From Anaerolineales bacterium (GTDB taxonomy: Bacteria; Chloroflexota; Anaerolineae; Anaerolineales; RBG-16-64-43), in NCBI GenBank assembly GCA_016928575.1, contig JAFGKK010000069.1, positions 1 through 56,064 of the forward strand: a DNA stretch of 56,064 nt, given 5' to 3'. The position numbers were made by a program, and so were the translations under genes. Positions 54,498 through 55,754 of the stretch are shown piece after piece. Within the stretch, counting starts at the first letter, position 1. Each line of letters opens with the position of its first letter. Under the pieces are notes generated by a model. The model did no database searches and was not told where the DNA came from. It saw only the letters and a list, made by a program, of their open reading frames with translations.

Positions 54498-55226
54498 ATG
54501 AATTGGCTGCAGCGGTTGCTCTCCAAGCCGGAAAAACCACGAACGGAACAAGGGAAGCCCGCGGCCGGCCCCCAGGCTCCGGCTCCGCCCGCGCGCCCCG
54601 GAGGAACCGGTGCGCTCGACGTCTCCGCGGTGATGGATTCGCGCATCGACGCGGAAAAGCACCTGCGCGAGGTGCAGGAGAAAACCAACAAGCTGGCGGA
54701 GGATTTCGCCCGCGGCGAAGTCAACCGCGCCACCTTCATCCACCTCTACCAGCATTACCAACAGCAGCGCTCGGCCATCGAGCGGATGCTCGAGATCTCG
54801 CCGGAAAAATGGCGCCAGGCGGTCAGCCAGGGAGTGAGCATCGCCATCCGCCGCGAACACCACGCCAAGGCGCTCGGGTTTTCCATCTACGAAAGCGCCA
54901 GCGGAATGCCGATCTCGACCCTCGGCAAGTTCGACCTCGACCCGGCGCTGATGGTGCCGATGCTCTCCCAGTACCGCGAGGCCACGCGCGAGATCTTCGG
55001 ATCGCGCATGCGCTCGGGCCAGATCGAAAGCGGCCGCTGGCTGTGCTTCGTATCCGGCCAATTCACCACGCTGATCGCGCTTTACAACACCGAGCCGGCC
55101 GCGCGCCAGTTGCAGCTGCTCGAGGAGACCCACCTGTTCTTCGAGCGCGCCAACAAACCGCGCCTGCAGCAATCGCCCATCTCCGCCGAAGGCCTGGTCT
55201 TCCCGCACGAATACTATCTGCAATAA
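54498..55226 (+). CDS. Predicted GTPase partner, longin/roadblock-like C-terminal domain
   Basis: The 242-residue protein has a basic, Pro-rich N-terminus, a helical segment (about 45-100: SRIDAEKHLREVQEKTNKL, HLYQHYQQQRSAIERMLEIS) and a C-terminal alpha/beta domain of about 110 residues (KALGFSIYESASGMPIST, YREATREIFGSRMRSGQIE, WLCFVSGQFTTLIALYN, LLEETHLFFERANK). The pattern suggests a longin or roadblock-type fold, the class that serves as platform or GAP for Ras-like GTPases. It ends 33 bases before the Rab-like GTPase gene. The fold call is inference from pattern and neighbourhood; no named family was recognised. Confidence 0.6.
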   Translation: MNWLQRLLSKPEKPRTEQGKPAAGPQAPAPPARPGGTGALDVSAVMDSRIDAEKHLREVQEKTNKLAEDFARGEVNRATFIHLYQHYQQQRSAIERMLEISPEKWRQAVSQGVSIAIRREHHAKALGFSIYESASGMPISTLGKFDLDPALMVPMLSQYREATREIFGSRMRSGQIESGRWLCFVSGQFTTLIALYNTEPAARQLQLLEETHLFFERANKPRLQQSPISAEGLVFPHEYYLQ

Positions 55227-55259
55227 CCGCGCCCTCGGGCGGCGCAAGGAGCCTCGAGC

Positions 55260-55754
55260 ATGTCGGATATTCCTCTGTTCAAAGTGTCGGTGGCCGGGGA
55301 TGAAGCGGTCGGCAAGACCTCGCTGATCCGGCGCTATTGCGAGGGAAAATTCGAGCAATCGCGGGTCGCCACCATCGGCGTGGATTTCCAGACCAAGGTC
55401 GTGGAACTGCCCTCCGGCGCGGTCAAGCTTTCGATCTGGGACATGGCCGGGCAGGCCCGGTTCGAGGTCGTGCGCACCGGGATGTACCGCGGCAGCCGCG
55501 CCGTCGCGCTGGTGTTCGATCTGTCGAATCCGGAGACCCTGGAACACCTGCCCGCCTGGCTGACCGAAGCCCAGACCAACGCCAAGGGCACGAAAATTTT
55601 GGTGGTCGGAAACAAGCTGGACTTGGCGCCGGCGCGCGGCGCCGGAAAGGCCTTCGCGGATTCAGCCGGCGCGCCGTACGTGGAAACCAGCGCCCAATCC
55701 GGCGAGGGCGTGGCGCAAATGTTCGAGACTTTGGCGACCCTGGCGGTGGGCTGA
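55260..55754 (+). CDS. Rab/Ras-like small GTPase
   Basis: A 164-residue single-domain GTPase with all G boxes: P-loop GDEAVGKTS (13-21), switch I ATIGVDFQTK with Thr38, switch II WDMAGQARFEVVRTGMYRGS (Asp61, Gln65), NKLD (118-121) and TSAQ near residue 143. TIGVDF and the catalytic Gln are as in eukaryotic Rab proteins. There is no C-terminal cysteine for prenylation, so membrane binding would need a partner. It is encoded directly after the predicted partner protein, with which it likely forms a polarity or regulatory module in the cytoplasm. Confidence 0.93.
   Translation: MSDIPLFKVSVAGDEAVGKTSLIRRYCEGKFEQSRVATIGVDFQTKVVELPSGAVKLSIWDMAGQARFEVVRTGMYRGSRAVALVFDLSNPETLEHLPAWLTEAQTNAKGTKILVVGNKLDLAPARGAGKAFADSAGAPYVETSAQSGEGVAQMFETLATLAVG

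Follow-up and report, generated by a model that had tools for sequence, protein, structure and literature searches.

Two adjacent genes at the right end of an Anaerolineales contig, both on the forward strand at 54498-55226 and 55260-55754 and separated by 33 nucleotides, encode a partner protein with a predicted roadblock/longin fold and a Rab-like small GTPase. We place at roughly 0.6 the probability of the platform explanation taken as a whole, in which the two genes make up an operon-like unit, one encoding a small GTPase switch and the other a platform dedicated to it; on this reading the partner, tethered to the membrane, serves through its roadblock/longin domain a Rab-like switch that is not prenylated. 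The window, by which we mean the whole stretch of 56,064 nucleotides that was analysed, is one entire contig of a 3.84 Mb genome. The genes of the pair and the signal between them are as follows.

54498..55226, forward strand: partner gene, 242 amino acids, ATG to TAA; the open reading frame encodes an N-terminal hydrophobic segment, a linker, a predicted helical hairpin and a predicted roadblock/longin-fold domain
55246..55251, forward strand: Shine-Dalgarno-like AAGGAG, 8 nucleotides 5' of the GTPase ATG, recognized in the sequence
55260..55754, forward strand: Rab-like small GTPase gene, 164 amino acids, ATG to TGA, without a C-terminal cysteine

The genes 5' of the pair encode a GNAT acetyltransferase, a weakly anti-sigma-factor-like protein and an ECF-type sigma factor (Pfam), and nothing suggests that they belong to the GTPase/partner unit. 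A single scan of genome contigs returned one near relative, an Anaerolineales MAG with a partner that is 81% identical. At L017:1440-1982 (+), L019 and L152 the genome of the window also contains two GTPases that read as MglA-type, one of them preceded by a gene for a DUF4388 protein, as well as a roadblock gene of MglB type that stands separately.

The GTPase and its relatives

The Rab hallmarks named in the sequence-only reading, TIGVDF, DMAGQ and NKLD, are present in the GTPase at these positions.

55371..55388, forward strand: switch I motif TIGVDF (RabF1), residues 38-43
55440..55454, forward strand: G3 motif DMAGQ, residues 61-65, with catalytic-type Gln and Asp
55611..55622, forward strand: G4 motif NKLD, residues 118-121

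The protein matches Pfam Ras with an E value of 5.2e-41 and Rab1A with an E value of 1.5e-33. In both the single-sequence and the profile searches of the PDB, the best 60 matches listed were all Rab, Ypt1/Sec4 or Rab-like proteins, a Thorarchaeota Rab among them. Motifs were counted in 23 GTPases of the downstream-paired type as defined in the tree, with L073 (genome G006, where the pair is split by contig ends) included and L141 left out. With motif letters that we take to be those of the Rab family, the RabF1 (IGVDF) and RabF2 patterns each occurred in 23 of the 23, RabF5 in 20 and RabF4 in 16; NKxD was found in 21. The G3 pattern D-x-[ASG]-G-Q was present in all 23, compared with none of 12 in the Rup-like group, and D61 was invariant in 20 of 20 aligned rows. 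Since the G3 Asp and Gln are both kept, the GTPase is probably capable of ordinary GTP hydrolysis. No cysteine, the residue by which prenylation of Rabs is judged, lies near the C-terminus of the window GTPase, in keeping with the earlier statement that it has no prenylation signal, nor did any of the 23 have one among the final six residues covered by the domain match.

In a tree of 63 rows the window GTPase falls inside a clade made up of Chloroflexota only (43 rows, 98/86; 39 rows, 95/81), is split from two MglA-type rows at 100/95, and stands apart from the Rup-like rows, which form a 12-row clade of their own (100/100). RAB7A, RAN and RAB1A lie just outside the Chloroflexota clade in an order that is not firm, five of the six eukaryotic rows being sequences supplied by hand. 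A phylogeny against Rab and MglA had been proposed beforehand; it upheld the separation from MglA but did not firmly order the eukaryotic proteins beside the Chloroflexota clade, and it does not tie the GTPase to eukaryotic Rabs. Two assignments were rejected: MglA, on account of the 100/95 split and of the G3 Asp where MglA has Thr; and Rup Group 1, on account of the G3 Gln and the separate Rup clade. Judged by its motifs, its PDB matches and its place in the tree, the GTPase belongs to the Ras superfamily and is Rab-like, the latter as the sequence-only reading had it. A scan of viral contigs for outside GTPases found no relative.

Other architectures occur around this type of GTPase. In the f51 loci (L088:1444-2400 (-), L089:1090-2022 (+), L090-L093, L095 and L096) a receiver domain is fused to a Rab-like GTPase in one open reading frame; the L088 fusion matches Pfam Response_reg at 1.3e-23 and Ras at 7.9e-41, L089 does likewise, and the fusions group inside the Chloroflexota Rab-like clade. 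The L088 stretch also contains two roadblock-type open reading frames. In f24 (L097, L098 and L100) the same type of GTPase has an N-terminal extension which, by eye, is like a degenerate receiver domain, and its G3 motif reads GGQ.

The partner protein: predicted fold and N-terminal segment

Sequence searches of Pfam, NCBIfam and the PDB gave nothing usable for the partner. The window protein was assigned to no Pfam or NCBIfam family, its only Pfam match being sub-threshold and to another family, and it fell below the cut-off of Roadblock/LC7 (PF03259). Robl_LC7 was also absent from the best 25 of 65 Pfam families listed for the partner family, 75 sequences collected from Chloroflexota genomes. 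Comparison of the family profile with a 32-row roadblock alignment by hhalign gave a probability of 4.9%, the control against the GTPase giving 1.0%. The partner is thus invisible to the Pfam roadblock model, and surveys that use this model would miss it.

The fold was approached through an AlphaFold2 model built on the 75 sequences, with a mean pLDDT of 87.1 and a pTM of 0.75; an earlier model on nine rows, with a pLDDT of 52, was kept out of the fold claims. The model has a disordered N-terminus, then a helical hairpin, then a domain of roadblock/longin fold, with helices at residues 42-71, 77-100, 113-121, 149-165 and 202-218 and strands at 125-132, 138-143, 171-175, 181-186 and 190-196. 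The parts of the protein are the following.

54498..54524, forward strand: residues 1-9, MNWLQRLLS, putative membrane-binding amphipathic helix
54525..54620, forward strand: residues 10-41, Pro/Ala-rich linker of variable length, with low pLDDT in the models and gaps in the alignment
54621..54797, forward strand: residues 42-100, predicted helical hairpin (stalk), with the family motif FAxGxINRxQFxxLYxHY and a block pLDDT of 83-98
54834..55223, forward strand: residues 113-242, predicted roadblock/longin-fold domain

Residues 122-242 of the model match solved roadblock and longin domains. Five Foldseek matches had E values of 0.001 or lower, namely the Sec22b longin (two chains), dynein Roadblock, a Streptomyces Roadblock and Asgard Roadblock2, with 5.5e-4 for the Sec22b longin and dynein Roadblock. 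The VIA Z scores were 11.9 for the Fuzzy longin, 11.1 for Sec22b, 10.7 for Asgard Roadblock3, 10.5 for synbindin and 10.4 for MglB, whose rows ranged from 9.2 to 10.4. On this model the domain is of the roadblock/longin superfold, with a five-stranded sheet and a matching order of helices and strands. The helical stalk and longin-like alpha/beta domain that had been read from the preceding gene are therefore borne out by the structure check of the 242-residue protein.

Longins are told from roadblock proteins by an extra C-terminal helix in place of the N-terminal helix. The model has mixed features, with a helix (113-121) before strand 1 and short helices after residue 218. The VIA alignments covered mostly 111-126 residues for longin rows and about 92-102 for roadblock rows, and in the predicted model the C-terminal extension aligns with longins.

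Most downstream-paired partners begin, at their likely N-termini, with a short hydrophobic segment (MNWLQRLLS, MFNWLKRVLGG, MSLWTRFIAWL), which is followed by a variable linker. The hydrophobic moment exceeded that of shuffled sequences at p <0.1 in 13 of 23 paired proteins and in one of eight controls, and W or F occurred in the first 14 residues of 21 of the 23 and of two of the eight; the controls were these eight only, picked by hand (L060 being of the upstream type), and start codons were likewise chosen by hand. For single proteins the moment is weak, with p 0.10 for the window and 0.76 for L009. Such segments may resemble the membrane-binding helices of MreB, FtsA and MinD, and residues 1-9 of the partner may bind the membrane. 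In f111, which belongs to another class, hydrophobic spans precede the domain in 5 of 5 homologues handled (of 6, L131 being left out); the window protein has none. Several such spans come before the hairpin and domain in the partner-family proteins of L127-L132.

Conservation of the pair and the likely docking surface

A GTPase gene is next door on the same strand at 28 of the 75 partner loci, directly downstream at 23, one of these an in-frame fusion, and directly upstream at 5. At one further locus it lies 4.7 kb away on the other strand, and at 46 there was none within the stretch read, which for most loci included only about 1.5 kb of flank. The sequences of L004 and L011 end 2 and 0 nucleotides after the partner match. 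The counts leave out L012 (spurious), L015 (a partial copy at a contig end), loci repeating a place already included, and the G399, G111:C5, G259 and G320 places; close copies, for example those of four f58 genomes, were counted as separate loci.

Within the clade of the window's partner (17 rows, 100/98) the GTPase is downstream in 16 of 16 testable cases, the seventeenth contig ending 2 nucleotides past the partner match. Among 395 genomes of the class, 15 have a GTPase match of at least 236 bits, and the partner adjoins it in 13; in G006 contig ends separate the two genes, and in G113 no partner was matched. In a 400-genome sample of the phylum, an unfused GTPase of at least 150 bits occurs in 10 genomes, each of which also has the partner. 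The order and strand of the pair are kept in many Chloroflexota families, and locus L125, outside the class, retains it; such recurrence with order and strand kept is more than chance. The joint presence is sporadic, as with G333 in f11. In L006 partner and GTPase form one in-frame open reading frame of 383 codons with no linker. Sequence identity among the partners tracks that among the GTPases across 22 pairs (r 0.88, Mantel p 0.0005, uncorrected for species kinship). The sequence-only reading had proposed conserved pairing as a check on its claim, and the pairing holds in these counts; it made no mention of the hydrophobic segment at the N-terminus, of the fusion in L006, of the homologues with membrane spans or of the paralogues that stand unpaired.

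No recognisable MglB-type roadblock gene was present in 30 pair stretches scanned, several of which cover one place at different widths. The idea of a larger conserved operon was rejected: 21 regions were compared, 20 neighbourhoods and the end of the window, and apart from the two families no cluster occurred in more than 5 of them. At L004 (f3) a two-domain AAA ATPase gene (L004:3-1496 (+), IstB/DnaA-like) overlaps the start of the partner by a few bases, an arrangement that is not general, and L015 holds a similar gene.

GTPases upstream of a partner gave far lower scores at four of the five loci. Those at L042:737-1261 (+) (f67) and L060:6695-7333 (+) (f58), each directly preceding a distant paralogue of the partner, have lost IGVDF and D-x-x-G-Q and are possible pseudo-GTPases. 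In f111 the partner and GTPase genes are unlinked, and in five genomes the GTPase adjoins a gene that reads, by its sequence, as a methionyl-tRNA formyltransferase. Unpaired paralogues of the partner occur in f33, f58 and others, and the 46 loci with no such GTPase in the stretch read show that the predicted roadblock/longin domain also serves without a nearby GTPase of this type. Distant paralogues in f4 (L010, L011, L013 and L014) have an additional hairpin-like match at the N-terminus, and the stretches around them contain no GTPase.

Comparison of 24 downstream-type partners (L004 included) with 39 unpaired ones pointed to one region of the protein.

54942..55028, forward strand: residues 149-177, central helix and next loop, likely GTPase-docking surface

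Twelve of the top 20 pair-specific columns fall in residues 148-178, which make up 31 of the 204 columns (hypergeometric P 1e-6) and correspond to the helix that lies between strands 2 and 3, with the loop after it. S157, R160 and E165 are pair-specific positions of this helix. Ancestry may account for part of this contrast, because the paired proteins are also grouped by phylogeny. The hairpin residues K62, F80 and Y87 are conserved in both paired and unpaired members. In the MglA-MglB structure the alpha2 helices of MglB hold the beta2 strand of MglA (PMC6785124). By analogy of fold, the central helix of the modelled partner would correspond to the MglA-binding helix of MglB, and the GTPase probably sits on it.

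Proposed mechanism, alternatives and known systems

In the mechanism that we propose, the amphipathic N-terminal helix of the partner would lie in the inner face of the cytoplasmic membrane, and the flexible linker and helical hairpin would hold the roadblock/longin domain off the membrane. This domain, probably dimeric, would hold the GTPase via its central helix. The partner would position at the membrane a GTPase that has no lipid anchor of its own, and it would bias the nucleotide state of that GTPase as a GAP, a GEF or both, as reported for MglB. The genes themselves, the predicted fold, the conserved adjacency, the single fusion and the clustering of pair-specific residues are results, and binding, dimer, membrane tether and regulation are what we infer in this scheme. 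Counted against it are the weak hhalign result, the weak hydrophobic moment of single proteins, the kinship left in the correlation of identities, the lack of a roadblock Pfam match, the 46 of 75 loci without a GTPase, the one control of eight that scores in the moment test, the unlinked f111 genes and the degenerate upstream GTPases.

It is unlikely that the partner is a soluble, mainly catalytic MglB-like GAP (perhaps a GEF), with an N-terminal helix that binds protein and with the pair timing polarity or motility. The GTPase retains the Asp of G3, which MglA is without, and is placed well away from MglA in the tree, and the membrane spans of the f111 homologues point to the membrane; these facts have to be set against the VIA Z scores of the MglB rows, the location of the pair-specific surface on the central helix, as in MglB, and the report that MglB is both GAP and GEF (PMC6785124). 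Less probable again is an effector role, in which the GTP-bound GTPase would recruit or release the partner, the hairpin would act elsewhere, and the unpaired paralogues would give the same output under other control. The loci with no GTPase in the stretch and the hairpin motif common to paired and unpaired proteins speak for such a role, but a hairpin common to both, together with a roadblock/longin surface that varies with pairing, fits the platform better, and GTPase-binding roadblock/longin proteins have been described mainly as GEFs and occasionally as GAPs (PMC10933270). That the genes are merely co-transcribed neighbours whose products make no contact is very improbable: binding is deduced here and f111 genomes keep the genes apart, but the pair is kept in otherwise differing neighbourhoods, is fused in L006, is sporadic in its joint presence (G333, f11), and is complete in 10 of 10 genomes with an unfused GTPase (>150 bits).

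The platform reading can be set beside several known systems. MglA/MglB of Myxococcus xanthus and Thermus thermophilus is likewise a Ras-like GTPase with a roadblock-fold partner encoded nearby, the partner's central helix being the likely contact. Unlike MglA, the window GTPase has Rab switch motifs and the G3 Asp and Gln, and lies far off in the tree; unlike MglB, the window partner is missed by the roadblock Pfam model and has a hairpin and an N-terminal hydrophobic segment. The eukaryotic TRAPP, Mon1-Ccz1, Fuzzy-Inturned and Ragulator complexes are of the same fold class and act as platforms for small GTPases of the Rab and Rag types; chains of Fuzzy, TRAPP and Ragulator match the partner model at VIA Z 9-12. 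The window partner differs from them in being one gene rather than multi-subunit, and sequence similarity to them was not detected. Ragulator anchors a GTPase that carries no lipid itself, and the window partner may do likewise. Roadblock/longin platforms for small GTPases are known from MglA/MglB, TRAPP, Mon1-Ccz1 and Ragulator (PMC10933270, PMC6785124).

Rup GTPases resemble the window GTPase in that they are bacterial members of the Ras superfamily near the eukaryotic Rab/Ras/Rho/Ran group (PMC4316618). Rup Group 1, however, has no Gln in G3 and different neighbouring genes, whereas the window type keeps the Gln and has a roadblock/longin partner. The 2014 survey by Wuichet and Sogaard-Andersen found coupling to MglB for MglA but for 0 of 121 Rup sequences (PMC4316618). 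Archaeal Rab-like proteins without C-terminal cysteines have been described (PMC4915359), and Asgard archaea, like the organism studied here, have such GTPases and roadblock and longin folds (PMC4915359, PMC10933270). In the Asgard strain MK-D1, by contrast, such GTPase genes reportedly do not as a rule share operons with roadblock or longin genes (PMC10933270). No paper describing such a pair in Chloroflexota came up in a literature search that covered few subscription journals.

In eukaryotes, membrane identity depends centrally on Rab-type GTPases and roadblock/longin platforms, which are usually sought in Asgard archaea. Coupling to such partners, familiar on the MglA side of the Ras superfamily, reaches its Rup/Rab side with the pair described here, which offers a two-gene system for measuring docking, GAP or GEF action and anchoring, as a simple model of switch control. 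Somewhat short of even odds, we tentatively suggest that Chloroflexota may run a minimal membrane-docked Rab-like switch with its anchor on the partner and not on a prenylated tail, which would be a single-gene counterpart of TRAPP or Ragulator, and a Rup-side GTPase coupled to a roadblock/longin protein of a kind absent from the 2014 prokaryotic survey.
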